Assembly (NCBI GenBank): GCA_964019425.1
Contig: OZ025820.1
Span: forward strand, 1 to 64,000
Direction: 5' to 3'
DNA: 64,000 nt
Origin: Flectonema sp. DT1601
Lineage: Eukaryota > Euglenozoa > Diplonemea > Diplonemida > Diplonemidae
Within the stretch, counting starts at the first letter, position 1. Every line of letters starts with the position of its first letter. Below the pieces are notes generated by a model. The model did not search any database. It saw only the letters and a program-made list of their open reading frames with translations, and was not told the DNA's origin. The translations under genes and the position numbers were made by a program. This document shows, piece after piece, positions 1 through 18,598 of this stretch.

Positions 1-2463
1 TTAAACCAACAACAACAAGAACTGCTACAATATAAAGCAGACCTACAACAGAAGCAGGAACAAATCCTGATCCAACAACAGCAGCTCGAACAGCAGCACA
101 GCAAGGAGAAGGCTGTCGAGGATGAGTCTCTCCGAAGAAGAAGATGCCAACTCGAAGAAGACCAACGCCAACAACAACAAGAACAGTCCAGGATTCAACA
201 GAATCTGCAACGGCAACAGGTTAGCCTGGAGGAAAAACAGCAGCTGCTTCAACATCAACTGAATGTGGAGTTGGAAAAGGGCAAACTGGACCAGCAGCAA
301 CAACAACAGAGACGGGAAGAAATCAAAAAGCAGGAAGATGACCTTGAGCATCAACGACTCCAACTACAACGCCAGCAGGAGGACGAGATGGAGAAGGGTA
401 GGAAGGAACTCCAGTGTCTCAGGAACAAGCTAGACATGGAGTTCGAACAACAGAAGCTGCGTAGCCATCAACTCCAACAACAACAAGAAAAGGAGAAGGA
501 ACAAGGGAGGAAGGAACTGCTCCAACTTCAACGGGAGCTTGGAAAGGAGTTCGAACAACAGCAACAAGAAGACCAGAAGTCAAAGCTAGATCTGGAACTT
601 CAAGAAGGAAAACTGCGACAACAGCAACAGAAGCTCCAACTCCAACAAAGCAGCCTCCGTCAGCAAACGCATGCAGTAAGCCAACCTCCGGTTTACTACA
701 TGCAGCACCAGCCTTATGCACCGATGCATCAAAGGCAACCGTACCCGCCGGTACTTCCGCAACAACAGGGAATTGAACAACTCCGACTGGAGCTCCAGAA
801 AGAGAGAGAAGAGAAGGGTGAGCTGAGGAAGTTGCTCATGGAACTCCAGACTCAGCTGAAAGAACTGAGACAGGAGTTGGCCTCATCGAGAGCGCAGAGA
901 AGCGAAGAAGTGAATGAGGTCGTAGTAGCCCCGAGCCAACCACCACTGGGAATTGCCAACTTAGTGAACGGTCTGACCTACTCTCGCTCCTACGGCCTCA
1001 CCACTGATGAGTCAAAGGTTAGATCAGCTGTACAGAGGAACTGCACATCCGAGTGGGAATCACTGGAAAAGAAAGCGATGCAGTCGATGAAAGCTGTTGA
1101 AAAAGCCAGACGTCTCTGGGAGAAAACCAACAAGAAGGAGAGGGAAGTGTTGAACTCCTGGAGCCTGAGGGAAGTTGATTGGAACATTCCGGTCACGAAG
1201 TTTGAGGAGGTATCGAAAGGGAATCAAGGAGTAGCCCTTGCGACGCCTTCGGAGGCAAGAGATCTTCTGGGGATGAAGCCGGAGGTTCCTGCATGGAAAA
1301 CGTGCAGCGTGGTAACGCTGGACCAAGTGAATGGACAAGGAAGAAGGGAACACGTGCTATTATCGAGCAAGGATGGAAACAAGGTACATCGCATCTTCAT
1401 TCATGACCTGGGTGAGGCTGCTCTACCAAAGGGTAAGCGGGGTATTAAATCGGTGAAGGCAATAGTGACCGCTCCTAAAAGAAGGTGGAAGGATGATAAG
1501 TGGCTTGAGTTAGCGAGTAAGCCTGAGCACCTCATCACAAAAGAAATGAAGGACACACCCGGCTTCATGGAAGCGTACAACTTCAGGGTAACGAAGAGTA
1601 CGGTGTCGGCTGTCATCCGACTGAGGAAATCCGGGGCGGTGGAACTGCTAAGAACTTCCGGCAAAGATGGGAGGTTCTTGTGGATCCAAGACGAAGGGGA
1701 GGCTCCGAAGGATACAGTTATTTGGCTTCAGGACGAGTGCTCTTTGAAGGAGGCAGTTGAACACTCTGATTCCTTGGAATCGTTGGGATTAGTCGAAAAC
1801 CCTAAAGGTTTTGGTATCAGAGTTTCACCGGAGCTGGAAGATGTAACCAGGGAAAAACTGGGAATCCCTGCAAAGCTCCCTGAATTAGAAATCTCGGGAA
1901 TTCCGTTAGATGTACTTCCCCGTGAAGCGGTAGCGCTGCTGGCGAAGGATGGGTGGCATGTGAGAGCAACCGTGGATGGAGTAAGGACTGGATACAGATG
2001 GATGAGGGTGCGTGCTGAAGTGCCGGATGACGACACGGTATTAATCGACGGTAGGGCATGTACGGTTGAGGTAGTTCAAAGACAAGATCGTAAGAAGCGC
2101 CAAGCTGCCAGAGAGGTGGATGTGAAGGAGAAAACTCAGCCAACGTCAACTGCGGAGAGCACACCGGAAAAAGGCCTTACTCCGCCGGAGAAGAGACGCG
2201 ATCCAACAGAGGGGGAGGCCTCTAATCGTTGCTACTTGCGAGCAGAATTCTTATCCTTTCATGGTAAGGGGAAGGGGAAGAGACTCTGGCGGGAAGCGGG
2301 TGTGAAGATTGAGGAGAGGAAAGGAGCCTTGAAGGAAGTAGGTCCTGTAGAGCAGGTTGTGACAAAGAAAACTGTGAAGAAGTCGACAGCTGAACAGGAT
2401 ACGATGGAACGAAGGATGGATCGTTTAGAGATGCTGATGACGAGATTCTTGGAAGGTAAATGA
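1..2463 (+). CDS. LINE ORF1 protein, glutamine-rich coiled coil (partial, 5' end outside window)
   Basis: Open from base 1 in the frame that ends at TGA 2461-2463; it matches ORF1 of copy 2 from codon 235 onward. The first third is a glutamine/leucine/glutamate-rich coiled coil built on loose QQQ heptads. A short proline/tyrosine linker (QPPVYYMQHQPY) and a second coiled coil follow, then about 430 residues of unrecognised globular sequence and a lysine-rich tail. ORF1 proteins of LINEs usually bind element RNA and form multimers; that role is inferred here because no RNA-recognition or zinc-finger motif is visible. One residue differs from copy 2 (arginine instead of leucine, codon at 208-210). 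Confidence 0.85.
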   Translation, partial: LNQQQQELLQYKADLQQKQEQILIQQQQLEQQHSKEKAVEDESLRRRRCQLEEDQRQQQQEQSRIQQNLQRQQVSLEEKQQLLQHQLNVELEKGKLDQQQQQQRREEIKKQEDDLEHQRLQLQRQQEDEMEKGRKELQCLRNKLDMEFEQQKLRSHQLQQQQEKEKEQGRKELLQLQRELGKEFEQQQQEDQKSKLDLELQEGKLRQQQQKLQLQQSSLRQQTHAVSQPPVYYMQHQPYAPMHQRQPYPPVLPQQQGIEQLRLELQKEREEKGELRKLLMELQTQLKELRQELASSRAQRSEEVNEVVVAPSQPPLGIANLVNGLTYSRSYGLTTDESKVRSAVQRNCTSEWESLEKKAMQSMKAVEKARRLWEKTNKKEREVLNSWSLREVDWNIPVTKFEEVSKGNQGVALATPSEARDLLGMKPEVPAWKTCSVVTLDQVNGQGRREHVLLSSKDGNKVHRIFIHDLGEAALPKGKRGIKSVKAIVTAPKRRWKDDKWLELASKPEHLITKEMKDTPGFMEAYNFRVTKSTVSAVIRLRKSGAVELLRTSGKDGRFLWIQDEGEAPKDTVIWLQDECSLKEAVEHSDSLESLGLVENPKGFGIRVSPELEDVTREKLGIPAKLPELEISGIPLDVLPREAVALLAKDGWHVRATVDGVRTGYRWMRVRAEVPDDDTVLIDGRACTVEVVQRQDRKKRQAAREVDVKEKTQPTSTAESTPEKGLTPPEKRRDPTEGEASNRCYLRAEFLSFHGKGKGKRLWREAGVKIEERKGALKEVGPVEQVVTKKTVKKSTAEQDTMERRMDRLEMLMTRFLEGK

Positions 2464-2547
2464 CGGCACGTAGATGGAAGGAACTGGGCTGAGACTCGAA
2501 GACGTCTCTTGCTGATAGCAGGGGACGTTGAACGAAACCCAGGGCCG
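2461..2547 (+). promoter_or_regulatory. ORF1/ORF2 recoding junction: TGA-CGG stop followed by 2A skipping motif (copy 1)
   Basis: ORF1 and ORF2 are in the same frame and only TGA 2461-2463 separates them. The stop is followed directly by CGG, giving UGA-CGG, a known leaky stop context. Fifteen sense codons later comes LLLIAGDVERNPGP, which matches the 2A consensus D-x-E-x-N-P-G-P; the skip would fall between the last G and P (2544/2545). A small hairpin (GAGAC at 2491-2495 with GTCTC at 2504-2508) lies between. The only ATG in the gap (2474) is in another frame and ends after 13 codons. Read-through is inferred; the motifs are seen directly. Confidence 0.7.
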
Positions 2548-5500
2548 AATAGGAGAAAGGATGGTCCCTCTTGCAAACTAAATGTAATCAGTTGGAATTG
2601 TCGCACCATCTCGAACAAAATGGAGTTCATTGGACACATCCTGAGTAAGCTTGACCCCGACGTACTTTGCCTTCAGGAGACTTCTTGCAGGATGGCATTG
2701 TTTCATTGGAACTACGTTTGCTACAGGAGGGATAGGCCAGGAAGGGGAGGTGGCCTGATCACTTTAATAAAACGAGGAATTCAACATGATTGCTTTGATA
2801 TCTCCATACCGTCGATGAGAGGAACCGTCGAGTCGATGGGTGTCAGAATTAACGAAGACGTAAGTATTCTCAACATCTACTCCCCACCGAGCTCGAGGAT
2901 TAATTTTGAACTATTCTCCCTGAAACGTGTTGGCAAGTTCATTCTCGCTGGTGACTTCAACGCACACCATAGGTACTGGTCCAAGAAAACCGACGTAAAA
3001 GGCTGTGACCTTCTCAACTGGACAGGGCAAGAGGACCTCCTGATTGCGAACCCGCCAGGTCTAGCGACACTGCCGAGACATGGGACCTCGCCCGATCTGA
3101 TCCTGCACCACGAGGAGATTCAACTGCTTAACTTTGAGCTGGTAGGTGAAGGAATTGAGCACGGTTCGGATCATACACCACTCTCTGCTACCTTCGATAC
3201 GCTCTCACCCCTTGAGCCTTCGGGCAACCACGCGACGAAGAGATCGGTCTGGGACTTCAATACAGCTGATTGGTACTCATATGAACATGAACTAGACTAC
3301 AGGTTTGGAAAGGTAAACAACTCTGCGAGCGTTGGGAGAAGAGCAGTAACGTTCAACAGAATCGTTCTTGGAGTAGCGAAGAGGTACGTTAGGAGAAGGC
3401 TTCGGATCAAAGGGAAGAGAAGAAGAATGTGGAACGCTTCCACCCCAGATACCAAGCGTGCGAAGGGAAAATTTATCGCTGAACGGCTAGCAAAAGGTGA
3501 AGGCTTTGCATATGCGTTCAAAAAGATAAAGGACCTTGAGACGGATGAAGGACGTGAAATTCACATTCCGGAGTTTGACGAGAACCAACTACCTGCGAAG
3601 TTCTTGGAACAATTTGTTAAGACCCCGACAAAACGTAAACTAGGACCTCCGAATACGAAGAGCAGCGACTTCGCCAAAATCGGAGGGAATCTAACAATGA
3701 CTGAACTGAAGCGAGCCATCAAGAAGGTAAGGCCCGGGAAAGCACCAGGTCCAGATGGAATCCATGGGATAATGTTGAAGAACTTATCGGTGATAGGAAT
3801 GGATTTCCTCCTGGCGTTATTCAATGAATCGTGGCTAACGTCAAAGGTACCGAGGATCTGGAAGGAGGGTCTTATCAAGCCAGTTTACAAACCAGGTAAG
3901 CCAAAAGATAAGATCGCAGGTTTCAGACCGATCACGTTGACCTCGGTGGTGGGTAAAGTACTTGAAAGAGTGATTTATGATAGGTTGATGTATTGGCTTA
4001 CCCAGAACAATGCCCTGTCGTCTATCCAGGCGGGTTTTAGAAGAGGAAGGAATACGTGTGAGCAGATTTCAATGTTAGTCAACGCTCTTCATGAGGCCAG
4101 TGAAAAGAACAAGAGCTCTGTTCTGCTGTCGTTCGACTTCACGGAAGCATTTGATAGAATTAATCATGAGAAACTGATCAAGAAGATGAAGAACATGAGT
4201 ATTCCCTCCCCGTTCATTGCATGGGTAGTTGACTTCCTGAAGGGCAGGCAGGCAAGGGTGAGTGCGAATGGCAACCTTAGCTCCTACAGAACGGTAACGA
4301 GGGGGGTTCCCCAAGGTTCGATTATCGGTCCGCTGCTATACCTGATTTATGTTGATGACCTGGCGAAGTTGTTGGAAAAGACTGGCTCAGTTTCGGCTCT
4401 TTATGCAGATGACACCGCTTGTGTAGTCTCTGATAAGGACGTTAATTTAACCAATAAGAAAGCGCAATGGATCCTTGGACTTGTGGATAGCTGGTGCAAA
4501 ACCAATGATATGGCACTGTCCGTCTCTAAGACATGTGGTATGCCTGTGCGCTGCCCAAAGGATATCTACTGGAGACTGGGCTTCCCCAGGACTGCAAAGG
4601 ATAATTATTACGTTGTAAGCAGGGGAGATCTGGCTAAGATGATCAGACCGAACGAGTTTGGAAGGCCAATTCTGGGTAGTGGAGAAACCATTCTCAAGGT
4701 GGATGATACCGAAGTTGCTAATACGAAGGACCTGCTTGCAATTTTCCCTGATGGATCAAGTAAGCTGAGAGTAAAGTTGTTAACCGCAGTACTGATGCCG
4801 ATGGTAGACAGCGTTAAATACCTGGGGGTGCACATTGATGGTGATTTATCTTATGGAACACAGGTCGGAAAGATGCTGGATGAGACCAGGAAGGGTCTTG
4901 CACTCCTGGGGAAACTAGAACAGTATGATTTTGATTTTAAGACGCTGTGCATGGTCAAGAACCTGTACATACTTTCAAGGCTGTCATATGGGCTGGAGAG
5001 CTTCGGTCCTTTCCTATCTGAGGGTCAGATTGATCTTGTGGACTTGAATCTGAAGAAGATTGCGAGAAGGATAACGGGTTGCAGCATCTACACCAGGTCT
5101 CTCCCACTGCTCTTGGAGGCGAACATGCTCCCGATGAAGTTGATAATAGAAAAACAGGCCAGAACTGCTCTGTTTAGGTATCGATCGCTGAAGTGGGTAC
5201 GTTCGACGAACCGAATAGCGAAAGGATTCTGGAGTTCTAAGTTGCCGCAGGAAGATTGTAACATCGCCCTCCAAGGAATAGTTCAACCTGACAGCATCGA
5301 ACCCTGGGCGGATGTACCAAATCTAGAGATATCCTGTGGGTATGGTCATAACAAGACCGGTGATGCAGATGTGGATAGGAACAAATTTGAGGAATACTGC
5401 AGGGACCTAGTCCCTTGCAACTCGGCTATATATGTGGACGGCTCACATGATCCTGCTAACTACACTGCGGGTGCGGCAGCAGTACAGGTCTCACCAACTG

Positions 5501-6351
5501 AGAGAACGATGTCGTCAAGACTTGTAGCTACTGAAAGCAGCTACAAGGCTGAACAAGTAACACTCAAACTGCTGATGAGAGAAATTGGCAAAGCTGACTC
5601 GATCTTGGGTCCCAGGTCAGGTATTACCAGAATCTTCAGTGACTCGAAATCCAACCTGGAGGAACTCAATGGAGGGATTGTTGCCCAGAGGAAGTTGAAC
5701 TCTCTGTTAATACTGGAAAGCATTAGGGATCTGAAGACACAGGTGCATCTCCAGTTTATCCCGGCCCATGTGGGGATTGAACCACACGATAAGGCTGATA
5801 AGCTGGCCAAAGAAGTCTCGAAGGATGCCGAAAGTAAACCGGTCTCAACGACCATAGATTTCTTCGCCCACAAATCAAGGGTAGCGAGGGAGTCTCACAG
5901 GAAGTTGATAGGAAAGATGATGGAAGCCTCCGAGAAGGCAAAGCCTCCAATGAAACGGGTGATGCTCAGACAGTATCTGGAGGCGACCGGAGGATTGAGA
6001 ACTGCTAGATATCCGAAAGACATGCTGAGGGCTTCGGAAGTAAGAATTGCACAATTCAGAACGGGTTCACACCCCTTGCTGAGAGACAAAGGCGTACAAC
6101 TGAAGTGCCCTTTTTGTAAACGGACGGACTCATCACCTAGACACTTGATGTTTAACTGCATGAACTCTGCTCTGGTACGCATCAGAAATGGAACAATTGG
6201 ATCTGTCATGGAAGAAGCGAAGATTTCAAAGAAGGAACACAGCCTGCTATTTATGTTCGCTACGAGGAACTTACATTCCCTCGCTGGCTTCATATGGCAT
6301 TTAGAACAATGGACGGCAACAAGCTGTTATCAGAAGTTACTATCTTTTTAG
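2464..6351 (+). CDS. LINE ORF2 polyprotein: 2A peptide, APE endonuclease, reverse transcriptase, RNase H, zinc knuckle
   Basis: Residues counted from the TTG at 2509. The 2A motif is at 5-13. The APE endonuclease runs about 24-230 (VISWNCRT; GDFNAHHRYW near 147; GSDHTPLSATF near 219). Reverse transcriptase spans roughly 380-700, with RPITLTSVVGKV, FDFTEAFDRIN and the catalytic YADD near 632. RNase H is about 970-1110 (YVDGSHD, FSDSKSN, IPAHVGIEPHDKAD). A CPFC-x9-H-x4-C knuckle is near 1199. It would nick target DNA and copy the element RNA by target-primed reverse transcription. No ATG precedes the endonuclease: the first in-frame one (2620) lies after the catalytic SWN, so I start the feature just after the ORF1 stop. 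Confidence 0.92.
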   Translation, partial: RHVDGRNWAETRRRLLLIAGDVERNPGPNRRKDGPSCKLNVISWNCRTISNKMEFIGHILSKLDPDVLCLQETSCRMALFHWNYVCYRRDRPGRGGGLITLIKRGIQHDCFDISIPSMRGTVESMGVRINEDVSILNIYSPPSSRINFELFSLKRVGKFILAGDFNAHHRYWSKKTDVKGCDLLNWTGQEDLLIANPPGLATLPRHGTSPDLILHHEEIQLLNFELVGEGIEHGSDHTPLSATFDTLSPLEPSGNHATKRSVWDFNTADWYSYEHELDYRFGKVNNSASVGRRAVTFNRIVLGVAKRYVRRRLRIKGKRRRMWNASTPDTKRAKGKFIAERLAKGEGFAYAFKKIKDLETDEGREIHIPEFDENQLPAKFLEQFVKTPTKRKLGPPNTKSSDFAKIGGNLTMTELKRAIKKVRPGKAPGPDGIHGIMLKNLSVIGMDFLLALFNESWLTSKVPRIWKEGLIKPVYKPGKPKDKIAGFRPITLTSVVGKVLERVIYDRLMYWLTQNNALSSIQAGFRRGRNTCEQISMLVNALHEASEKNKSSVLLSFDFTEAFDRINHEKLIKKMKNMSIPSPFIAWVVDFLKGRQARVSANGNLSSYRTVTRGVPQGSIIGPLLYLIYVDDLAKLLEKTGSVSALYADDTACVVSDKDVNLTNKKAQWILGLVDSWCKTNDMALSVSKTCGMPVRCPKDIYWRLGFPRTAKDNYYVVSRGDLAKMIRPNEFGRPILGSGETILKVDDTEVANTKDLLAIFPDGSSKLRVKLLTAVLMPMVDSVKYLGVHIDGDLSYGTQVGKMLDETRKGLALLGKLEQYDFDFKTLCMVKNLYILSRLSYGLESFGPFLSEGQIDLVDLNLKKIARRITGCSIYTRSLPLLLEANMLPMKLIIEKQARTALFRYRSLKWVRSTNRIAKGFWSSKLPQEDCNIALQGIVQPDSIEPWADVPNLEISCGYGHNKTGDADVDRNKFEEYCRDLVPCNSAIYVDGSHDPANYTAGAAAVQVSPTERTMSSRLVATESSYKAEQVTLKLLMREIGKADSILGPRSGITRIFSDSKSNLEELNGGIVAQRKLNSLLILESIRDLKTQVHLQFIPAHVGIEPHDKADKLAKEVSKDAESKPVSTTIDFFAHKSRVARESHRKLIGKMMEASEKAKPPMKRVMLRQYLEATGGLRTARYPKDMLRASEVRIAQFRTGSHPLLRDKGVQLKCPFCKRTDSSPRHLMFNCMNSALVRIRNGTIGSVMEEAKISKKEHSLLFMFATRNLHSLAGFIWHLEQWTATSCYQKLLSF

Positions 6352-6653
6352 TATATCATACTCATACATCACTCCTAATTCATCTCCTAATAACTCTCTG
6401 AGGACATCCGTAGAGCTTCATAGCTCGCAGGTAACCCAGTGGTCTTTGGCCACCGTCTCCGTATTGATCATTCGCTTTGTACTTACAGTGTCGTGAGCTT
6501 CCTATCCGGGGAAGTCCTCCAACGGACTCACAACAGTTGCACTCGTTGTTGCTTATTTACTTAGTTAAAAAATAAGAAGAGCGAGTATGCTCAGAAAGAA
6601 TAAAAACAAAGTAGAAAGACAGGGGGGATGTGACTAAATAAATAAATAAAAGA
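6352..6653 (+). other. LINE 3' UTR and A-rich tail (copy 1)
   Basis: About 300 bp between the ORF2 stop and the insertion point. It has no open reading frame of note and ends in a run of AAAT units (CTAAATAAATAAATAAAAGA). Short stretches such as GTAGAGCTTCATAGCTC could fold. The identical segment in copy 2 is 18,093-18,394. Confidence 0.8.
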
Positions 6654-6857
6654 AGATTTTTTTATTTCTCGGGAGCTTAGTGGGGCAACCTACCACCAGA
6701 AAAAAATTTGGAAAATTTTATTTATTTTTTTTTTTTTTTTTTTTTTTTTGAGGGATTTATTTTGTAGTGGGGGCTGGGGCTGGGTCTTAACATTAAAGTT
6801 AACGTGGGAGCGGCGAAAATTACGTCTTTCGGGGAAGAAAGCCAAAAAAAAAATATA
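6654..6857. repeat. SL/5S repeat-unit fragment between the LINE and the DNA transposon (copy 1)
   Basis: These 204 bp are the piece of a 640-bp SL/5S unit that normally follows the 5S 5' flank: target-site duplication, CTCGGGAGCTTAGTGGGGC, the poly(T) tract, and the segment ending in AAAAATATA. The LINE inserted at its left edge and the transposon at its right edge, so one unit took two insertions. Confidence 0.9.
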
Positions 6858-9257
6858 CTGTAAAGGGAAATATTCTCGCGGGGAAATATTCTTGCGGGGA
6901 AATATTCTCGCGGGGAAATATTCTCGCGGATTTGGGGATTTTTTTTCAAACTCGCGGGTTTTTCCCCACAAGAATATTTCCCTGCCACAGAGGATTTCTG
7001 CTGTAAGAAATATTTCCCTGCAACAAAAAAAATTTATTGCAGAGTTTATGTAAGGATTATTATTTTTATGTCCTGCATCAAGTGCAATCATGGTTGGAAC
7101 CAAAAGTTAAAGGAATTTATTTGAACTTAGCAAACAAAAACAAACATACCAAGGGAACAACTAGTAATAATTGCTAAAGAATTTTACTGCAATGATTTAG
7201 ATTTCTGTGTGTGTACATCATCAAGTTAAAAAAGTTATTTAAACCAGCAAACAAAACAACAATGCCAAAGGAACAGCCACTTATTACTTCCTTCCTAAAG
7301 AAGGATGGAAATACACCACCACCAAGATTCAACCTACCTGGACCAATAGTAAGAAGCATTGCTAGGCAAGTAAGAGAGGAAAAGGGAAAGAGAAATCAGG
7401 TGAAGTGGGAAAAAGAAGAACTGATAGAGATAGGTAGGAGGGTGTCAGTGGCCACCAACTTAGCAGCAGGGATCAGGGTGTGGAACCAAGGTGAAGGGAA
7501 CAAGAGACTTGCAGAGACAACTGCAAGACATGCAGTTAAGCTTTATAGAGAAAGGAACAGTATGCAGGCAGTCAAGCGAAAAGCTGGAAGACCTTCCCAC
7601 CTTTCAGAAACAAATGAAGAAGAGGTCTTAGCACACCTAAGGAACTTAAGAAGGTTTGGTGCTTCAATCAACAGTCTGGTAGTTAAGGCCACAGCCAAGG
7701 CCATATACTACAGAAATGACCCACAAAGGGAAATTACATTCACAACTGAATGGGCAAAGAAGTTTATGGGTGCAAGAGGATTTGTTTGGCGCTCAGCAAC
7801 TGCAAGTAAACCCCTTCAAGAGAAGAATCTCCTTGAAGCACAAAGGGAGTTTACAATGGAACTAAAACAGGCAATACATGACTGTGAAGTTCCACCCTGC
7901 TGTGTATTAAATATTGATCACACAGGGCTACAGTTAACACCAGCACCAGAGAAGACCTTGGAACAAAGGGGGGCCACTCAAGTCCCAATTACTTGTGCCA
8001 ATGATAAAAGGCAGATCACAGGTATTGCTTGTGTTTCACAGGCAGGTGATATCCACCCCTTCTGTTTGATTGTACCTGGCAAAACTACTCGCAGTCAACC
8101 AAAGCTATCTCCTAATCTTCAGGGCAAATGTTTTATATTATCCTCTGGTTCAACAAACCATTTTGCCAATAAACAACTAACCAGGCAGTACATTGAATTT
8201 CACCTTCACCCAATCAGACTTAAGATTGTTGAGAGTAACAATCTTGATGAAAACCAAATATTTATTATCCTTCTTGATCATTTTAGTGGCCAGGATGATT
8301 GTACCATGTTTGATTTCTTTTTATCCTTTGGCTACCTGCCAATATTTATACCAGCTGGTTGGACAGGTAAGCTACAACCACTGGACATTTCAGTTTTTGC
8401 TGGTTTGAAGCAAAGATTTAGAAACAAGTTTTGTAATTGGTATTCTGAAGAGATAAATTCTATTTTAACAAAACAAAAAAAAAGGCAAAAGGAGATTGAG
8501 GAACTTCAAAGGGCTGCACAGGAAACTGGACAGAACTTTGATGATTCTCAAATCCCTAAAATCCCAGTTTTACCTGATTTGCGAACATCTTCCCTAAGAG
8601 ACAGGCAAGCAAGATGGGTTATTGAGTCTTACTATGAAACACCAAAGGAGACTATTATTGCTGGCTTTAACAGGGCACTTACCCCTTATCATCTAGGTGA
8701 ATCCCAGTCAATTTCAGACACAACTAGCTTTTATGCAGTTGATGGCTCCCAAACCACTATTGATGTTGATGATCTTTCAGGCTACTATTCTGACCCAGAT
8801 TCTTCAATTTCTTCAGTTCCTAATCCTAACAGTGTTCAGGATTTTGAAGAAGTACCTGAAATTGAAGTAGGACCTGAAGTTATCAACATTGATTAAATCT
8901 ATGTTTTCCCCTATATTTTTCTCCCTATTTTATAAATTCCCTTAGCTTGTTTCTATTTACTTTTAATTTTGTTTTCTTCTCTCTTTTGTATAAGTTCCCT
9001 CACAGCAATTTGAATGATTCAATTTATATGTTCACTTCTAATTATATTTTTCTACTTACAGCACACCAATAAAATATAACTGCACTAAATAAATTTTCCT
9101 AGTTTATTGTATTTTCACACCTTTTCTTTCACAAGGGGAAAAAAAAAATGGCTGGGCAAAATGTTTGTTAGCAGGGAAATATTCTCGCGGGGAAATATTC
9201 TCGCGGATTTAGGAAAAATGAGAAAAACTCGCGGGTTTTTCCCCACAAGAATATTTC
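6858..9257 (+). mobile_element. pogo/CENP-B-type DNA transposon, copy 1 (right end truncated)
   Basis: The left end CTGTAAAGGGAAATATTC directly follows a TA target. The body holds one transposase gene. Left subterminal DNA has four copies of the AAATATTCTCGCGGGG type and the right end has two, with CCCCACAAGAATATTT facing inward at both. Copy 2 shows the complete right end CCCTTTACAG plus TA; here the match stops after AAGAATATTTC, so the final bases of the right terminal inverted repeat are gone and unrelated sequence follows. Without both ends this copy probably cannot move by itself, though its transposase frame is open. Confidence 0.9.
7262..8896 (+). CDS. pogo/Tigger-like DDE transposase (copy 1)
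   Basis: A 544-residue transposase of the DDE_1 (pogo, Tigger, CENP-B, Jerky) type that would cut and paste the surrounding element at TA sites. The catalytic triad is visible as NIDHTG (Asp 219), LLDHFSG (Asp 339) and LQPLDIS (Asp 375), a DD35D spacing. Upstream, AVKRKAGRPSHLS and the helical stretch after it resemble the helix-turn-helix DNA-binding region of this family. The frame is open from a GTG at 7211, but the first ATG (7262) opens MPKEQPLITSFLKK, the better start. The acidic serine-rich C-terminus is typical. It differs from copy 2 at two residues (Val/Met and Glu/Lys). Confidence 0.92.
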   Translation: MPKEQPLITSFLKKDGNTPPPRFNLPGPIVRSIARQVREEKGKRNQVKWEKEELIEIGRRVSVATNLAAGIRVWNQGEGNKRLAETTARHAVKLYRERNSMQAVKRKAGRPSHLSETNEEEVLAHLRNLRRFGASINSLVVKATAKAIYYRNDPQREITFTTEWAKKFMGARGFVWRSATASKPLQEKNLLEAQREFTMELKQAIHDCEVPPCCVLNIDHTGLQLTPAPEKTLEQRGATQVPITCANDKRQITGIACVSQAGDIHPFCLIVPGKTTRSQPKLSPNLQGKCFILSSGSTNHFANKQLTRQYIEFHLHPIRLKIVESNNLDENQIFIILLDHFSGQDDCTMFDFFLSFGYLPIFIPAGWTGKLQPLDISVFAGLKQRFRNKFCNWYSEEINSILTKQKKRQKEIEELQRAAQETGQNFDDSQIPKIPVLPDLRTSSLRDRQARWVIESYYETPKETIIAGFNRALTPYHLGESQSISDTTSFYAVDGSQTTIDVDDLSGYYSDPDSSISSVPNPNSVQDFEEVPEIEVGPEVINID

Positions 9258-9494: not shown

Positions 9495-9602
9495 AACCTT
9501 AAAAAGCAGTTACCTCAGGTAATTAGAAATTGTGTGGCTTTTAGAACTACTAGCCAGTACTAACAGAAATGCTTGTTTGCGGGTAGGGAAGTAAAGGAAA
9601 AA

Positions 9603-9721
9603 GCCTGCAAGCACCCGGGGTTCCCACGTGATCACTCACCGCAGTACTAACCAGGCCTGCTGGTGCTTAACTTCCCAAATCGGGCGGGATGGGGTGCATT
9701 CACCAGAGTATGGCCGCAGGC
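9603..9721 (-). rRNA. 5S ribosomal RNA
   Basis: Minus strand, 119 nt, from GCCTGCGGCCATAC to GGGTGCTTGCAGGC followed by TTTTT, a Pol III terminator. The ends pair (GCCTGCGGC with GCTTGCAGGC). Internal promoter motifs are present: AGTTAAGCACC (A box) and GGCCTGGTTAGTACTGCGGT (C box). Length and motifs match eukaryotic 5S. Confidence 0.96.
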
Positions 9722-10023
9722 AATAGCAGATTTTTTTATTTCTCGGGAGCTTAGTGGGGCAACCTACCACCAGAAAAAAATTTGGAAAATTTTATTTATT
9801 TTTTTTTTTTTTTTTTTTTTTTTGAGGGATTTATTTTGTAGTGGGGGCTGGGGCTGGGTCTTAACATTAAAGTTAACGTGGGAGCGGCGAAAATTACGTC
9901 TTTCGGGGAAGAAAGCCAAAAAAAAAATATATTAAAATTTTTTTACGTAAAAATAGGAAACACGGTAAGTCTTTGTACATTTTCTTCTACTTGGCAAACA
10001 CAAGTCCACGGACAATAAAAAAA

Positions 10024-10134
10024 CCCCAAAGGAAGAAAATTCTTCCAAAGAGGTTAGCTAAATATTCCAAGCAAGCTCGGATGTTGAGACTGTACCAATA
10101 AAGTACAGAAACTGTAGCTTTAGAATCGTTGGTT
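10024..10134 (-). ncRNA. Spliced-leader (SL) RNA
   Basis: The exon is 10,096-10,134 (39 nt, AACCAACGATTC to TTTATTG) and is followed by the donor GGTACAGTCTC. The RNA body contains GGAAGA-ATTT-TCTTCC, a small hairpin with an AAUUUUC sequence that could serve as the Sm site. It ends at a run of T (10,017-10,023), giving an RNA of about 111-117 nt. The exon closely resembles the Diplonema SL. It donates the capped 5' end of nuclear mRNAs by trans-splicing. Confidence 0.93.
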
Positions 10135-10242
10135 AACCTTAAAAAGCAGTTACCTCAGGTAATTAGAAATTGTGTGGCTTTTAGAACTACTAGCCAGTAC
10201 TAACAGAAATGCTTGTTTGCGGGTAGGGAAGTAAAGGAAAAA

Positions 10243-10361
10243 GCCTGCAAGCACCCGGGGTTCCCACGTGATCACTCACCGCAGTACTAACCAGGCCTGC
10301 TGGTGCTTAACTTCCCAAATCGGGCGGGATGGGGTGCATTCACCAGAGTATGGCCGCAGGC
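10243..10361 (-). rRNA. 5S ribosomal RNA
   Basis: Second complete 5S copy, 640 bp from the first and identical to it by eye, with the TTTTT terminator on its 3' (low-coordinate) side. Confidence 0.96.
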
Positions 10362-10663: not shown

Positions 10664-10774
10664 CCCCAAAGGAAGAAAATTCTTCCAAAGAGGTTAGCTA
10701 AATATTCCAAGCAAGCTCGGATGTTGAGACTGTACCAATAAAGTACAGAAACTGTAGCTTTAGAATCGTTGGTT
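10664..10774 (-). ncRNA. Spliced-leader (SL) RNA
   Basis: Complete SL gene: 39-nt exon at 10,736-10,774, GT donor, hairpin/Sm-like body and T-run. Identical by eye to the copy at 10,024. Confidence 0.93.
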
Positions 10775-11001: not shown

Positions 11002-11007
11002 AATAGC

Positions 11008-11021
11008 AGATTTTTTTATTT
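11008..11021. repeat. LINE target-site duplication, left copy
   Basis: AGATTTTTTTATTT, repeated at 18,395-18,408 after the LINE tail and present once in empty units. It is A/T-rich, as expected for an APE-type target. Confidence 0.88.
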
Positions 11022-11039: not shown

Positions 11040-14000
11040 ATGCCTCCACGCGGCGGTCTCGGACGGCAGAGACCGACTAAATTTTGCAACCAGATGGGAG
11101 GAGAAATACTCTCACGGAAGGAAAGGAACCAGAAAGCACACACAGAGAACGGGAACGGTAAGAAAGACAGGAAGACGAGCGTAGACACGAAGGAACGAGA
11201 CGAGTTGAGGGAGAGACTCGCACGGGATGGCCTAAGAAGGCTGGATCGGGACGAAGACAGGAAGAAGGACGAGAAGGTCCTCAAGAAAAAACAGGCAGAG
11301 CAGGAAGAAGAGAAGAACGAACTGCTGCAACAACAAGAGCTCCTCTGCAAACAACAGAGTGAGCTAGAAGTTAACTTCCAGAAGAAACAGGAAGAATTAT
11401 TCCAAAAGCAACAACAGCTTGAGGAAGTACTGACTAACCATAAACAGCAACAACTTGTCAACCAGAAACAACTGGACCATCAACAGCAACAAAACCAGGA
11501 ACATCTGCATCAACAACAGAAGGCTCTTACTCAGTACGAAGATGAACTCTGTCTGAAGCAACAACAGCAAGAACAGCAACTTAGCCATCAAGTCAAAAAG
11601 CAGCAGGAAATTCAACAGCAGCAGCAACAGCAACTTGATCAACAAGTCCAACAACAGCAGGATAAGCATATACAACAGCAACAACAACTTGAGCATCAAG
11701 TCCAACAACAACATCAAAACCAACAACATAGCCAAGAGTTGTTAAACCAACAACAACAAGAACTGCTACAATATAAAGCAGACCTACAACAGAAGCAGGA
11801 ACAAATCCTGATCCAACAACAGCAGCTCGAACAGCAGCACAGCAAGGAGAAGGCTGTCGAGGATGAGTCTCTCCGAAGAAGAAGATGCCAACTCGAAGAA
11901 GACCAACGCCAACAACAACAAGAACAGTCCAGGATTCAACAGAATCTGCAACTGCAACAGGTTAGCCTGGAGGAAAAACAGCAGCTGCTTCAACATCAAC
12001 TGAATGTGGAGTTGGAAAAGGGCAAACTGGACCAGCAGCAACAACAACAGAGACGGGAAGAAATCAAAAAGCAGGAAGATGACCTTGAGCATCAACGACT
12101 CCAACTACAACGCCAGCAGGAGGACGAGATGGAGAAGGGTAGGAAGGAACTCCAGTGTCTCAGGAACAAGCTAGACATGGAGTTCGAACAACAGAAGCTG
12201 CGTAGCCATCAACTCCAACAACAACAAGAAAAGGAGAAGGAACAAGGGAGGAAGGAACTGCTCCAACTTCAACGGGAGCTTGGAAAGGAGTTCGAACAAC
12301 AGCAACAAGAAGACCAGAAGTCAAAGCTAGATCTGGAACTTCAAGAAGGAAAACTGCGACAACAGCAACAGAAGCTCCAACTCCAACAAAGCAGCCTCCG
12401 TCAGCAAACGCATGCAGTAAGCCAACCTCCGGTTTACTACATGCAGCACCAGCCTTATGCACCGATGCATCAAAGGCAACCGTACCCGCCGGTACTTCCG
12501 CAACAACAGGGAATTGAACAACTCCGACTGGAGCTCCAGAAAGAGAGAGAAGAGAAGGGTGAGCTGAGGAAGTTGCTCATGGAACTCCAGACTCAGCTGA
12601 AAGAACTGAGACAGGAGTTGGCCTCATCGAGAGCGCAGAGAAGCGAAGAAGTGAATGAGGTCGTAGTAGCCCCGAGCCAACCACCACTGGGAATTGCCAA
12701 CTTAGTGAACGGTCTGACCTACTCTCGCTCCTACGGCCTCACCACTGATGAGTCAAAGGTTAGATCAGCTGTACAGAGGAACTGCACATCCGAGTGGGAA
12801 TCACTGGAAAAGAAAGCGATGCAGTCGATGAAAGCTGTTGAAAAAGCCAGACGTCTCTGGGAGAAAACCAACAAGAAGGAGAGGGAAGTGTTGAACTCCT
12901 GGAGCCTGAGGGAAGTTGATTGGAACATTCCGGTCACGAAGTTTGAGGAGGTATCGAAAGGGAATCAAGGAGTAGCCCTTGCGACGCCTTCGGAGGCAAG
13001 AGATCTTCTGGGGATGAAGCCGGAGGTTCCTGCATGGAAAACGTGCAGCGTGGTAACGCTGGACCAAGTGAATGGACAAGGAAGAAGGGAACACGTGCTA
13101 TTATCGAGCAAGGATGGAAACAAGGTACATCGCATCTTCATTCATGACCTGGGTGAGGCTGCTCTACCAAAGGGTAAGCGGGGTATTAAATCGGTGAAGG
13201 CAATAGTGACCGCTCCTAAAAGAAGGTGGAAGGATGATAAGTGGCTTGAGTTAGCGAGTAAGCCTGAGCACCTCATCACAAAAGAAATGAAGGACACACC
13301 CGGCTTCATGGAAGCGTACAACTTCAGGGTAACGAAGAGTACGGTGTCGGCTGTCATCCGACTGAGGAAATCCGGGGCGGTGGAACTGCTAAGAACTTCC
13401 GGCAAAGATGGGAGGTTCTTGTGGATCCAAGACGAAGGGGAGGCTCCGAAGGATACAGTTATTTGGCTTCAGGACGAGTGCTCTTTGAAGGAGGCAGTTG
13501 AACACTCTGATTCCTTGGAATCGTTGGGATTAGTCGAAAACCCTAAAGGTTTTGGTATCAGAGTTTCACCGGAGCTGGAAGATGTAACCAGGGAAAAACT
13601 GGGAATCCCTGCAAAGCTCCCTGAATTAGAAATCTCGGGAATTCCGTTAGATGTACTTCCCCGTGAAGCGGTAGCGCTGCTGGCGAAGGATGGGTGGCAT
13701 GTGAGAGCAACCGTGGATGGAGTAAGGACTGGATACAGATGGATGAGGGTGCGTGCTGAAGTGCCGGATGACGACACGGTATTAATCGACGGTAGGGCAT
13801 GTACGGTTGAGGTAGTTCAAAGACAAGATCGTAAGAAGCGCCAAGCTGCCAGAGAGGTGGATGTGAAGGAGAAAACTCAGCCAACGTCAACTGCGGAGAG
13901 CACACCGGAAAAAGGCCTTACTCCGCCGGAGAAGAGACGCGATCCAACAGAGGGGGAGGCCTCTAATCGTTGCTACTTGCGAGCAGAATTCTTATCCTTT

Positions 14001-14204
14001 CATGGTAAGGGGAAGGGGAAGAGACTCTGGCGGGAAGCGGGTGTGAAGATTGAGGAGAGGAAAGGAGCCTTGAAGGAAGTAGGTCCTGTAGAGCAGGTTG
14101 TGACAAAGAAAACTGTGAAGAAGTCGACAGCTGAACAGGATACGATGGAACGAAGGATGGATCGTTTAGAGATGCTGATGACGAGATTCTTGGAAGGTAA
14201 ATGA
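11040..14204 (+). CDS. LINE ORF1 protein, glutamine-rich coiled coil (copy 2, complete)
   Basis: 1,054 residues from the first ATG of the element. Residues 1-40 are basic. About 60-455 form a very long Q/L/E coiled coil with many CAA/CAG runs. A QPPVYYMQHQPY linker lies near 460-485 and a second coiled coil (EQLRLELQKEREEKG) near 490-530. Residues about 560-1000 look globular and match no family I recognise. The C-terminus is lysine-rich and ends in a short coiled coil (MERRMDRLEMLMTRFLE). It is long for a LINE ORF1 and lacks CCHC knuckles. The likely role is binding and packaging element RNA (inferred). It ends at a TGA in frame with ORF2. Confidence 0.9.
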   Translation: MPPRGGLGRQRPTKFCNQMGGEILSRKERNQKAHTENGNGKKDRKTSVDTKERDELRERLARDGLRRLDRDEDRKKDEKVLKKKQAEQEEEKNELLQQQELLCKQQSELEVNFQKKQEELFQKQQQLEEVLTNHKQQQLVNQKQLDHQQQQNQEHLHQQQKALTQYEDELCLKQQQQEQQLSHQVKKQQEIQQQQQQQLDQQVQQQQDKHIQQQQQLEHQVQQQHQNQQHSQELLNQQQQELLQYKADLQQKQEQILIQQQQLEQQHSKEKAVEDESLRRRRCQLEEDQRQQQQEQSRIQQNLQLQQVSLEEKQQLLQHQLNVELEKGKLDQQQQQQRREEIKKQEDDLEHQRLQLQRQQEDEMEKGRKELQCLRNKLDMEFEQQKLRSHQLQQQQEKEKEQGRKELLQLQRELGKEFEQQQQEDQKSKLDLELQEGKLRQQQQKLQLQQSSLRQQTHAVSQPPVYYMQHQPYAPMHQRQPYPPVLPQQQGIEQLRLELQKEREEKGELRKLLMELQTQLKELRQELASSRAQRSEEVNEVVVAPSQPPLGIANLVNGLTYSRSYGLTTDESKVRSAVQRNCTSEWESLEKKAMQSMKAVEKARRLWEKTNKKEREVLNSWSLREVDWNIPVTKFEEVSKGNQGVALATPSEARDLLGMKPEVPAWKTCSVVTLDQVNGQGRREHVLLSSKDGNKVHRIFIHDLGEAALPKGKRGIKSVKAIVTAPKRRWKDDKWLELASKPEHLITKEMKDTPGFMEAYNFRVTKSTVSAVIRLRKSGAVELLRTSGKDGRFLWIQDEGEAPKDTVIWLQDECSLKEAVEHSDSLESLGLVENPKGFGIRVSPELEDVTREKLGIPAKLPELEISGIPLDVLPREAVALLAKDGWHVRATVDGVRTGYRWMRVRAEVPDDDTVLIDGRACTVEVVQRQDRKKRQAAREVDVKEKTQPTSTAESTPEKGLTPPEKRRDPTEGEASNRCYLRAEFLSFHGKGKGKRLWREAGVKIEERKGALKEVGPVEQVVTKKTVKKSTAEQDTMERRMDRLEMLMTRFLEGK

Positions 14205-14288
14205 CGGCACGTAGATGGAAGGAACTGGGCTGAGACTCGAAGACGTCTCTTGCTGATAGCAGGGGACGTTGAACGAAACCCAGGGCCG
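14202..14288 (+). promoter_or_regulatory. ORF1/ORF2 recoding junction: TGA-CGG and 2A motif (copy 2)
   Basis: Same junction as in copy 1: TGA 14,202-14,204 followed by CGG, no frame change, then GDVERNPGP with the expected skip point at 14,285/14,286. The out-of-frame ATG in the gap is also the same. Both open copies keep it, so it is unlikely to be a sequencing error, although the copies are too alike to show selection. Confidence 0.7.
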
Positions 14289-17200
14289 AATAGGAGAAAG
14301 GATGGTCCCTCTTGCAAACTAAATGTAATCAGTTGGAATTGTCGCACCATCTCGAACAAAATGGAGTTCATTGGACACATCCTGAGTAAGCTTGACCCCG
14401 ACGTACTTTGCCTTCAGGAGACTTCTTGCAGGATGGCATTGTTTCATTGGAACTACGTTTGCTACAGGAGGGATAGGCCAGGAAGGGGAGGTGGCCTGAT
14501 CACTTTAATAAAACGAGGAATTCAACATGATTGCTTTGATATCTCCATACCGTCGATGAGAGGAACCGTCGAGTCGATGGGTGTCAGAATTAACGAAGAC
14601 GTAAGTATTCTCAACATCTACTCCCCACCGAGCTCGAGGATTAATTTTGAACTATTCTCCCTGAAACGTGTTGGCAAGTTCATTCTCGCTGGTGACTTCA
14701 ACGCACACCATAGGTACTGGTCCAAGAAAACCGACGTAAAAGGCTGTGACCTTCTCAACTGGACAGGGCAAGAGGACCTCCTGATTGCGAACCCGCCAGG
14801 TCTAGCGACACTGCCGAGACATGGGACCTCGCCCGATCTGATCCTGCACCACGAGGAGATTCAACTGCTTAACTTTGAGCTGGTAGGTGAAGGAATTGAG
14901 CACGGTTCGGATCATACACCACTCTCTGCTACCTTCGATACGCTCTCACCCCTTGAGCCTTCGGGCAACCACGCGACGAAGAGATCGGTCTGGGACTTCA
15001 ATACAGCTGATTGGTACTCATATGAACATGAACTAGACTACAGGTTTGGAAAGGTAAACAACTCTGCGAGCGTTGGGAGAAGAGCAGTAACGTTCAACAG
15101 AATCGTTCTTGGAGTAGCGAAGAGGTACGTTAGGAGAAGGCTTCGGATCAAAGGGAAGAGAAGAAGAATGTGGAACGCTTCCACCCCAGATACCAAGCGT
15201 GCGAAGGGAAAATTTATCGCTGAACGGCTAGCAAAAGGTGAAGGCTTTGCATATGCGTTCAAAAAGATAAAGGACCTTGAGACGGATGAAGGACGTGAAA
15301 TTCACATTCCGGAGTTTGACGAGAACCAACTACCTGCGAAGTTCTTGGAACAATTTGTTAAGACCCCGACAAAACGTAAACTAGGACCTCCGAATACGAA
15401 GAGCAGCGACTTCGCCAAAATCGGAGGGAATCTAACAATGACTGAACTGAAGCGAGCCATCAAGAAGGTAAGGCCCGGGAAAGCACCAGGTCCAGATGGA
15501 ATCCATGGGATAATGTTGAAGAACTTATCGGTGATAGGAATGGATTTCCTCCTGGCGTTATTCAATGAATCGTGGCTAACGTCAAAGGTACCGAGGATCT
15601 GGAAGGAGGGTCTTATCAAGCCAGTTTACAAACCAGGTAAGCCAAAAGATAAGATCGCAGGTTTCAGACCGATCACGTTGACCTCGGTGGTGGGTAAAGT
15701 ACTTGAAAGAGTGATTTATGATAGGTTGATGTATTGGCTTACCCAGAACAATGCCCTGTCGTCTATCCAGGCGGGTTTTAGAAGAGGAAGGAATACGTGT
15801 GAGCAGATTTCAATGTTAGTCAACGCTCTTCATGAGGCCAGTGAAAAGAACAAGAGCTCTGTTCTGCTGTCGTTCGACTTCACGGAAGCATTTGATAGAA
15901 TTAATCATGAGAAACTGATCAAGAAGATGAAGAACATGAGTATTCCCTCCCCGTTCATTGCATGGGTAGTTGACTTCCTGAAGGGCAGGCAGGCAAGGGT
16001 GAGTGCGAATGGCAACCTTAGCTCCTACAGAACGGTAACGAGGGGGGTTCCCCAAGGTTCGATTATCGGTCCGCTGCTATACCTGATTTATGTTGATGAC
16101 CTGGCGAAGTTGTTGGAAAAGACTGGCTCAGTTTCGGCTCTTTATGCAGATGACACCGCTTGTGTAGTCTCTGATAAGGACGTTAATTTAACCAATAAGA
16201 AAGCGCAATGGATCCTTGGACTTGTGGATAGCTGGTGCAAAACCAATGATATGGCACTGTCCGTCTCTAAGACATGTGGTATGCCTGTGCGCTGCCCAAA
16301 GGATATCTACTGGAGACTGGGCTTCCCCAGGACTGCAAAGGATAATTATTACGTTGTAAGCAGGGGAGATCTGGCTAAGATGATCAGACCGAACGAGTTT
16401 GGAAGGCCAATTCTGGGTAGTGGAGAAACCATTCTCAAGGTGGATGATACCGAAGTTGCTAATACGAAGGACCTGCTTGCAATTTTCCCTGATGGATCAA
16501 GTAAGCTGAGAGTAAAGTTGTTAACCGCAGTACTGATGCCGATGGTAGACAGCGTTAAATACCTGGGGGTGCACATTGATGGTGATTTATCTTATGGAAC
16601 ACAGGTCGGAAAGATGCTGGATGAGACCAGGAAGGGTCTTGCACTCCTGGGGAAACTAGAACAGTATGATTTTGATTTTAAGACGCTGTGCATGGTCAAG
16701 AACCTGTACATACTTTCAAGGCTGTCATATGGGCTGGAGAGCTTCGGTCCTTTCCTATCTGAGGGTCAGATTGATCTTGTGGACTTGAATCTGAAGAAGA
16801 TTGCGAGAAGGATAACGGGTTGCAGCATCTACACCAGGTCTCTCCCACTGCTCTTGGAGGCGAACATGCTCCCGATGAAGTTGATAATAGAAAAACAGGC
16901 CAGAACTGCTCTGTTTAGGTATCGATCGCTGAAGTGGGTACGTTCGACGAACCGAATAGCGAAAGGATTCTGGAGTTCTAAGTTGCCGCAGGAAGATTGT
17001 AACATCGCCCTCCAAGGAATAGTTCAACCTGACAGCATCGAACCCTGGGCGGATGTACCAAATCTAGAGATATCCTGTGGGTATGGTCATAACAAGACCG
17101 GTGATGCAGATGTGGATAGGAACAAATTTGAGGAATACTGCAGGGACCTAGTCCCTTGCAACTCGGCTATATATGTGGACGGCTCACATGATCCTGCTAA

Positions 17201-18092
17201 CTACACTGCGGGTGCGGCAGCAGTACAGGTCTCACCAACTGAGAGAACGATGTCGTCAAGACTTGTAGCTACTGAAAGCAGCTACAAGGCTGAACAAGTA
17301 ACACTCAAACTGCTGATGAGAGAAATTGGCAAAGCTGACTCGATCTTGGGTCCCAGGTCAGGTATTACCAGAATCTTCAGTGACTCGAAATCCAACCTGG
17401 AGGAACTCAATGGAGGGATTGTTGCCCAGAGGAAGTTGAACTCTCTGTTAATACTGGAAAGCATTAGGGATCTGAAGACACAGGTGCATCTCCAGTTTAT
17501 CCCGGCCCATGTGGGGATTGAACCACACGATAAGGCTGATAAGCTGGCCAAAGAAGTCTCGAAGGATGCCGAAAGTAAACCGGTCTCAACGACCATAGAT
17601 TTCTTCGCCCACAAATCAAGGGTAGCGAGGGAGTCTCACAGGAAGTTGATAGGAAAGATGATGGAAGCCTCCGAGAAGGCAAAGCCTCCAATGAAACGGG
17701 TGATGCTCAGACAGTATCTGGAGGCGACCGGAGGATTGAGAACTGCTAGATATCCGAAAGACATGCTGAGGGCTTCGGAAGTAAGAATTGCACAATTCAG
17801 AACGGGTTCACACCCCTTGCTGAGAGACAAAGGCGTACAACTGAAGTGCCCTTTTTGTAAACGGACGGACTCATCACCTAGACACTTGATGTTTAACTGC
17901 ATGAACTCTGCTCTGGTACGCATCAGAAATGGAACAATTGGATCTGTCATGGAAGAAGCGAAGATTTCAAAGAAGGAACACAGCCTGCTATTTATGTTCG
18001 CTACGAGGAACTTACATTCCCTCGCTGGCTTCATATGGCATTTAGAACAATGGACGGCAACAAGCTGTTATCAGAAGTTACTATCTTTTTAG
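14205..18092 (+). CDS. LINE ORF2 polyprotein (copy 2)
   Basis: The translation is identical to ORF2 of copy 1, with the same order: 2A motif, APE endonuclease, reverse transcriptase (FDFTEAFDRIN, GVPQGSIIGPLLYLIY, LYADDTA), RNase H and CPFC zinc knuckle. The usual 2A product would begin with the proline at 14,286, so the mature enzyme would start PNRRKDGPS just before the endonuclease. RNase H followed by a knuckle separates this element from L1 and RTE types and supports the Ingi/I/Jockey side of the LINE tree. Confidence 0.92.
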   Translation, partial: RHVDGRNWAETRRRLLLIAGDVERNPGPNRRKDGPSCKLNVISWNCRTISNKMEFIGHILSKLDPDVLCLQETSCRMALFHWNYVCYRRDRPGRGGGLITLIKRGIQHDCFDISIPSMRGTVESMGVRINEDVSILNIYSPPSSRINFELFSLKRVGKFILAGDFNAHHRYWSKKTDVKGCDLLNWTGQEDLLIANPPGLATLPRHGTSPDLILHHEEIQLLNFELVGEGIEHGSDHTPLSATFDTLSPLEPSGNHATKRSVWDFNTADWYSYEHELDYRFGKVNNSASVGRRAVTFNRIVLGVAKRYVRRRLRIKGKRRRMWNASTPDTKRAKGKFIAERLAKGEGFAYAFKKIKDLETDEGREIHIPEFDENQLPAKFLEQFVKTPTKRKLGPPNTKSSDFAKIGGNLTMTELKRAIKKVRPGKAPGPDGIHGIMLKNLSVIGMDFLLALFNESWLTSKVPRIWKEGLIKPVYKPGKPKDKIAGFRPITLTSVVGKVLERVIYDRLMYWLTQNNALSSIQAGFRRGRNTCEQISMLVNALHEASEKNKSSVLLSFDFTEAFDRINHEKLIKKMKNMSIPSPFIAWVVDFLKGRQARVSANGNLSSYRTVTRGVPQGSIIGPLLYLIYVDDLAKLLEKTGSVSALYADDTACVVSDKDVNLTNKKAQWILGLVDSWCKTNDMALSVSKTCGMPVRCPKDIYWRLGFPRTAKDNYYVVSRGDLAKMIRPNEFGRPILGSGETILKVDDTEVANTKDLLAIFPDGSSKLRVKLLTAVLMPMVDSVKYLGVHIDGDLSYGTQVGKMLDETRKGLALLGKLEQYDFDFKTLCMVKNLYILSRLSYGLESFGPFLSEGQIDLVDLNLKKIARRITGCSIYTRSLPLLLEANMLPMKLIIEKQARTALFRYRSLKWVRSTNRIAKGFWSSKLPQEDCNIALQGIVQPDSIEPWADVPNLEISCGYGHNKTGDADVDRNKFEEYCRDLVPCNSAIYVDGSHDPANYTAGAAAVQVSPTERTMSSRLVATESSYKAEQVTLKLLMREIGKADSILGPRSGITRIFSDSKSNLEELNGGIVAQRKLNSLLILESIRDLKTQVHLQFIPAHVGIEPHDKADKLAKEVSKDAESKPVSTTIDFFAHKSRVARESHRKLIGKMMEASEKAKPPMKRVMLRQYLEATGGLRTARYPKDMLRASEVRIAQFRTGSHPLLRDKGVQLKCPFCKRTDSSPRHLMFNCMNSALVRIRNGTIGSVMEEAKISKKEHSLLFMFATRNLHSLAGFIWHLEQWTATSCYQKLLSF

Positions 18093-18394: not shown

Positions 18395-18598
18395 AGATTT
18401 TTTTATTTCTCGGGAGCTTAGTGGGGCAACCTACCACCAGAAAAAAATTTGGAAAATTTTATTTATTTTTTTTTTTTTTTTTTTTTTTTTGAGGGATTTA
18501 TTTTGTAGTGGGGGCTGGGGCTGGGTCTTAACATTAAAGTTAACGTGGGAGCGGCGAAAATTACGTCTTTCGGGGAAGAAAGCCAAAAAAAAAATATA
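18395..18598. repeat. SL/5S repeat-unit fragment between LINE and transposon (copy 2)
   Basis: 204-bp piece of a 640-bp unit, matching 6,654-6,857. Its left 14 bp are the right LINE target-site duplication, and its last TA (18,597-18,598) is the left target of the transposon. Confidence 0.9.

Follow-up and report, generated by a model that had tools for sequence, protein, structure and literature searches.

The LINE at the contig start

How LINEs with two ORFs limit the amount of ORF2, and how they keep it separate from ORF1, is understood only in part. A LINE at the start of contig OZ025820.1 of the diplonemid Flectonema sp. DT1601, within the 64,000 nucleotides analysed here (the window), raises this question: how is an ORF2 expressed that lies in the frame of ORF1, behind a stop codon? 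As the original prediction had it, ORF1 and ORF2 occupy one frame split by TGA-CGG, and this frame is open on both sides of 2461-2463. The predicted 2A core, GDVERNPGP, does follow the TGA (2521-2547), whereas its spacing had been misjudged, the core being preceded by 19 codons rather than 15. ORF2 was also said to have no ATG ahead of its endonuclease domain, and indeed the first in-frame ATG is at 2620 and the SWN motif at 2590. The features of copy 1 are:

1..2460, + strand: ORF1 of LINE copy 1, truncated by the contig start, 820 codons open
2461..2463, + strand: in-frame TGA, predicted leaky, followed by CGG at 2464-2466 (context class of PMC3542737)
2464..2520, + strand: spacer of 19 codons from the stop to the 2A core, without in-frame ATG, with protein-like substitution between families
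2521..2547, + strand: 2A core GDVERNPGP (motif definition of PMC12846837)
2542-2544 (G) / 2545-2547 (P), + strand: predicted skip in the 2A of copy 1
2545..6351, + strand: predicted post-skip ORF2, with its TAG at 6349-6351
2590..2598, + strand: SWN motif, start of the endonuclease domain
2620..2622, + strand: first in-frame ATG downstream of the stop, past SWN

From 2464 the frame runs open for 1295 codons to the TAG at 6349-6351, and its ORF2 contains Exo_endo_phos (PF03372/PF14529), RVT_1 (PF00078) and weak RNase H domains. An endonuclease and a reverse transcriptase in a single ORF2, which mark an APE-type LINE, are also found in two of the other families described below (F2 and F7). Zero further in-frame TGA or TAG codons are present in ORF1 and ORF2 of the window copies.

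A second copy in the window contains the full ORF1:

11009..11021, + strand: 5′ target-site duplication GATTTTTTTATTT (by eye)
11040..14201, + strand: full ORF1, 1054 aa from the first ATG (P0121)
14202..14204, + strand: in-frame TGA, followed by CGG
14262..14288, + strand: 2A core
14286..18092, + strand: predicted post-skip ORF2, with its TAG at 18090-18092
18396..18408, + strand: 3′ target-site duplication (by eye)

The joint of copy 2 (14202/14262) is identical to that of copy 1. Both belong to a tandem duplication with an offset of 11,741 bases, in which 2461-8896 and 14202-20637 comprise the LINE and a transposase-like ORF behind it; the two window joints thus count as one event. The target-site duplication is 13 bp long and, as identified by eye at a single insertion, flanks copy 2. 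The transposase-like ORF, named by eye, has 566 codons (7196-8896 and 18937-20637). Elsewhere in the genome, an F7 LINE copy (L107) lies inside a copy of the same transposase-like gene, with frames that continue into the gene on both sides.

The neighbourhood is repetitive. At 9602-25050, a 640-base unit is repeated in tandem; it carries, on the minus strand, a 5S rRNA gene together with a spliced-leader-like exon, and LINE copy 2 lies about 8-20 bases past the 5′ end of a 5S gene. The exon, CCAACGATTCTAAAGCTACAGTTTCTGTACTTTATTG, is present nine times in the window and has two mismatches to the corresponding 37 bases of a listed 39-base euglenozoan leader (PMC3795323). In Diplonema, 5S and SL RNA likewise share one repeat (PMC10161547), which fits a diplonemid origin. 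A eukaryotic large-subunit rRNA fragment lies on the minus strand at 29969-30154, and D. papillatum also has scattered 28S pieces (PMC10161547). Site-specific insertion into the 5S/SL repeats was considered and rejected: 43 matches to the element 3′ end plus flank were obtained (40 of 83 candidates were scored), and element and flank matched together in no copies but the two of the window. As these two matches are one tandem duplication, a preference for this insertion site is unsupported.

The joint across the genome

The genome (89.5 Mb) was searched with degenerate motif patterns, and the same patterns reversed served as a chance control. The G-D-V-E-R-N-P-G-P pattern gave 130 matches against 0 reversed, D-x-E-x-N-P-G-P gave 137 against 0, and GI-x-x-NPGP gave 22 against 0. 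Among the matches listed, 100 of the 130 GDVERNPGP joints were examined, both window copies included; with six DVE(T/I)NPGP joints and nine of the 22 GI-x-x-NPGP matches added, the set comprises 115 joints with an intact 2A core.

Homologues without the in-frame stop or the 2A would have spoken against the original prediction. On checking, 112 of the 115 intact-2A joints, from ten LINE families, keep an in-frame stop at a distance fixed within each family (97/100 for GDVERNPGP, 6/6 for DVE(T/I)NPGP and 9/9 for GI-x-x-NPGP), with one F1 copy having a spacer one codon shorter. Two of the three exceptions (L018, L079) retain the letters TGA-C and are shifted in frame by indels; the third (L017) has decayed, carrying a 7-base insertion and reading TGG at the stop site. 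Outside the 115, one decayed copy (L117) has NSGP for NPGP and is stop-free for 100 codons upstream. Among frames outsized for their family (150 endonuclease matches scored of 310 candidates), no stop-less ORF1-ORF2 fusion was found: the long frames C12, C27 and C39 retain the stop (L031, L058, L107), and C21 and C8 (L116, L119) have unrelated sequence directly upstream. The joint is not a peculiarity of a single copy, and its anatomy is established: the common frame, the stop context, the spacer, the 2A core and the start-less ORF2 recur with the same layout in ten families.

Stop contexts in ten families

The ten families are our own grouping and are related, so that they do not represent ten independent draws. 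Their stops, and the sense codons between the stop and the 2A motif, are:

F1: TGA-CGG, 19 sense codons to the G of GDVE(R/T)NPGP
F2: TGA-CCG, 19 sense codons to the G of GDVE(R/T)NPGP
F3: TGA-CTT, 17 sense codons to the G of GDVE(R/T)NPGP
F4: TGA-CAT, 17 sense codons to the G of GDVE(R/T)NPGP
F5: TGA-CTA, 27 sense codons to the G of GDVE(R/T)NPGP
F6: TGA-CTT (CTC in one copy), 47 sense codons to the G of GDVE(R/T)NPGP
F7: TGA-CTA, 16 sense codons to the G of GDVE(R/T)NPGP
F8: TAG-CAA-CTA, 28-29 sense codons to the N of NPGP
F9: TAG-CAA-CGA, 29 sense codons to the N of NPGP
F10: TAG-CAA-TCA, 28 sense codons to the N of NPGP

Seven families thus have TGA-C, and the three more distant ones (F8-F10) have TAG-CAA. 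Among viral leaky stops, type II is UGA-CGG or UGA-CUA and type I is UAG-CAR-YYA (PMC3542737). F1, F5 and F7 carry type II contexts, F8 and F10 carry type I, and F9 (CAA-CGA) is one base off type I; F2, F3, F4 and F6 have other UGA-CNN contexts (CCG/CUU/CAU/CUU), outside the CGG/CUA of type II. F5 and F7 read UGA CUA G, which is described as a high-read-through motif (PMC12233894). In an ilarvirus study, UGA-CNN contexts besides CUA and CGG are ostensibly less leaky, UGA CUA alone is quoted at ~1.5-2.9% read-through, and the same mix of contexts is taken as a sign of read-through (PMC11166343). Since both contexts match published viral leaky classes, the identity of the stop has changed while its context remained leaky-type.

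Other stops in the same DNA provide controls. The genuine ORF2 stops of F1-F6 are TAG-T, TAG-G, TAA-C, TAA-C, TAA-A and TAG-T, with 0/6 in a leaky class. The observation that host genes here also end in TGA proved correct: among 14 long host ORFs in the window (non-LINE, non-transposase, at least 150 aa), seven end in TGA, two in TGA-C and none in TAG-CAR, which means that of the seven host TGA stops two are followed by C. The background in the host part of the window is 18% for TGA followed by C and 5% for TAG followed by CAR. One host ORF, ankyrin-like by eye (52069-53958), ends in TGA-CTA; it was rejected as a read-through case, its downstream frame closing after 16 codons. TGA-C is shared by F1 and F3 despite near-saturated synonymous sites in the spacer (pS 0.96, core included). 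This retention of TGA-C across saturation, together with the other stop in another leaky-type context in the distant families, carries the main weight of the argument.

The 2A motif

The consensus of the 2A (StopGo) core is (D/G/C/N)(V/I)ExNPGP (PMC12846837). The cores of F1-F7, DVE(R/T)NPGP (DVEINPGP in one F7 copy), and of F8-F9, GIEQNPGP, all fit it, and that of F10, GIHPNPGP, deviates once, with His at the Glu position. Rare variants, including ones at this Glu position, are reported as ~90% active or more in reticulocyte lysate (PMC12846837). Activity depends on upstream residues, suitable ones being L-rich and ending in (A/S/C)G before the D, or with (A/G/S)G at p12 (PMC12846837); by eye, the lead-in LLL(I/Q/L/K)AG seen here resembles the active L-rich motifs published there. 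For full activity, the FMDV 2A is described as requiring its native sequence over >30 residues. The stretch between the stop and the 2A glycine measures 24-35 codons in every family except F6, where it is 55; to reach the FMDV length, most families would thus need upstream residues supplied by an ORF1 chain that runs on past the stop.

Spacer, start codons and RNA structure

For the spacer, pN/pS was computed with the last eight codons (the 2A core) excluded:

F1/F2 0.15/0.59; F1/F3 0.09/0.88; F1/F4 0.13/0.80
F2/F3 0.12/0.82; F2/F4 0.10/0.74; F3/F4 0.03/0.44
Distant pairs: F1/F7 0.43/0.82; F5/F6 0.48/0.68
Distant pairs: F8/F9 0.30/0.71; F8/F10 0.55/0.79; F9/F10 0.49/0.80

In the same F1-F4 pairs, the last 30 codons of ORF1 have pN of 0.19-0.49. 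Constraint on the spacer is weak between distant families, and the comparison of F8 subtypes says little because different lengths were aligned without a gap. The substitution pattern indicates that the spacer evolves as protein.

In the ten family representatives, the region from the stop to the endonuclease motif (for F2, TIN, assigned by pattern) is free of in-frame ATGs; those ATGs that occur there are all in the +1 frame. Two gene-caller starts were rejected: that of P0001, which lacks the first endonuclease motif, and that of P0005 ('MKPTT'), in whose place GTG stands in the F6 copies.

In most cases, type II read-through goes with a proposed stem-loop that starts about 8 nt past the stop. 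No conserved stem-loop 3′ of the stop was found in folds of 11 representatives at three window sizes against shuffles, only F1 falling below a z of −2 (−2.99 at 100 nt, −2.71 at 150 nt). The alignment of nine F1-F4 sequences gave a covariation term of 0.1, with 2/27 pairs changed on both sides. A downstream RNA structure as read-through stimulator is thus unsupported by folds and covariation.

Module exchange and relatives elsewhere

The ORF1 proteins of F1-F4 (34-70% identity) and F5-F7 (32-43%) form two classes. The ORF2 of F7 is 72% identical to that of F1 and is joined to an ORF1 of the other class; the ORF2 of F2 is 24% identical to that of F1 over 252 aa and is joined to an ORF1 and a spacer that group with those of F1-F4. 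F2 (L012) and F7 (L107) look as if lineages had traded ORF1 and ORF2, with the junction at or close to the 2A. ORF1 and ORF2 types thus appear to have been swapped around a retained joint.

Relatives of ORF2 are found in EukProt transcriptomes (P0004, P0006, P0008, P0009). P0004 has GNVEVNPGP ahead of the endonuclease and a Met upstream of this 2A, so that an AUG start is possible in this protein. In P0006, the annotated start Met occupies the place where NPGP would have its second proline (MLRILSWN). NPGM belongs to the rare 2A variants that are active (PMC12846837), and P0006 as a putative case of this type is only a lead. Several of 236 retrieved proteins are other LINE proteins in which a predicted start is followed, close to the N-terminus, by a 2A-type motif. 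The 2A is common in LINEs, and the elements here stand apart in having a joint that lacks a start and lies behind a stop. Five ORF1 matches all look as if they come from this genome, their tails matching F1-F4; viral contigs yielded no relatives.

Proposed mechanism and alternatives

A leaky stop followed by 2A skipping is the best fit for the joint, and we regard it as very probable. ORF1 would terminate at the stop in its leaky-type context, and a small share of ribosomes would likely read through in frame to give an ORF1-ORF2 chain. The downstream 2A is predicted to skip one peptide bond, freeing the endonuclease/reverse-transcriptase ORF2 as a separate protein, and the stop would hold ORF2 scarce relative to ORF1. 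Because one frame, a leaky-type stop and a 2A-type motif are found in ten families, ORF2 is likely made via occasional read-through. The sequence shows the layout of the joint; read-through, 2A activity in this host and scarcity of ORF2 are inferred from it.

Alternatively, ribosomes might reinitiate or enter internally at a non-AUG codon of the spacer, with the 2A acting on a short N-terminal leader. Stop-start reinitiation occurs in SART1 and has been proposed for LINE-1 (PMC5972666), and both the LINE proteins with an N-terminal 2A-type motif behind a predicted start and the upstream Met of P0004 would suit such a route. However, it would not require that the stop share the frame, that its context be of a leaky type or that two kinds of it exist; in all ten representatives, the stretch between the stop and the endonuclease motif offers ATGs in the +1 frame only, and a leader made of the spacer only would measure 24-56 residues to the 2A glycine. 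We consider this route improbable. Removal of the stop before translation, by RNA editing, by splicing or by spliced-leader addition that makes a separate ORF2 mRNA, appears highly improbable. The host does carry spliced-leader RNA genes, and trans-splicing is common to all Euglenozoa (PMC10161547), but a separate ORF2 mRNA would still have no in-frame ATG ahead of SWN, editing leaves the leaky-type context and the TGA/TAG switch unexplained, and the joint showed no intron-like insert.

If read-through were genuine and the 2A core an inactive relic, ORF2 would act as an ORF1-ORF2 fusion. The dependence of StopGo activity on upstream residues and the His in the F10 core leave some room for this, which we put at a very slim chance: a 2A-type core is retained in ten of ten families, ORF1 and ORF2 types appear exchanged around it, and the His variant is ~90% or more active in lysate (PMC12846837). 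Coding sequence beyond in-frame stops would also be expected if TGA (and TAG) were plain sense codons, or TGA a selenocysteine site. We give this the least credence of all, as seven of 14 long host ORFs terminate in TGA, neither ORF of the window copies contains a further in-frame TGA or TAG, and distant families have TAG at the same joint.

Having preferred a leaky stop followed by 2A skipping, we lean, with some reserve, towards a wider reading in which this pair is the ancestral, selected expression system of the whole diplonemid LINE radiation. The joint would be portable: the ORF2:ORF1 ratio would be set by the stop and the boundary between the products by the 2A, ORF1 and ORF2 types could be exchanged on either side, and the stop would have switched between UAG-CAA and UGA-C yet always remained leaky.

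Significance and comparison with known systems

2A-bearing non-LTR retrotransposons reportedly include L1Tc and ingi of trypanosomes and APE-type elements of animals. Such retrotransposons resemble the elements here in that the ORF for their APE endonuclease and reverse transcriptase carries a 2A-type motif close to its start (PMC4981915, PMC5972666); a leaky stop ahead of the 2A is unreported for them in the secondary literature consulted. The literature searched, with the primary 2A papers (Heras 2006, Odon 2013, Luke 2014) outside its scope, reports no LINE in which a leaky stop and a 2A are joined, and the original prediction, which knew of none, agrees with that literature, those key papers excepted. 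Each device has precedents, the 2A in LINEs and read-through in viruses; their combination would be new. If true, it would be a first natural case, within the literature searched, of stop read-through and 2A skipping in series, borne by ten families with two kinds of stop. The joint is short and testable, provides leaky contexts as a natural series within a eukaryotic lineage that has been little studied, and is a possible design for fixed-ratio, unfused co-expression.

Reinitiation in SART1 and LINE-1 likewise yields little ORF2 from a two-ORF mRNA (PMC5972666), whereas it needs a new start codon, of which none lies in frame here before the endonuclease motif. The viral type II contexts UGA-CGG and UGA-CUA (tobraviruses, alphaviruses) and the type I context UAG-CAR-YYA (tobamoviruses, Providence virus) both recur in these LINEs, Providence virus having exactly the UAG-CAA-CUA of F8 (PMC3542737). 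No conserved stem-loop was found here. Providence virus also has 2A-type motifs, in other ORFs. The viral cases listed in PMC3542737 lead to an extended fusion, whereas in these LINEs the stop is followed by a 2A at a distance of 24 to 56 codons. Cardioviruses likewise place a 2A (StopGo) beside a second recoding event in a single mRNA, a −1 frameshift site, which lowers enzyme output (PMC5009743); there the frameshift comes after the 2A, whereas here read-through would come before it.
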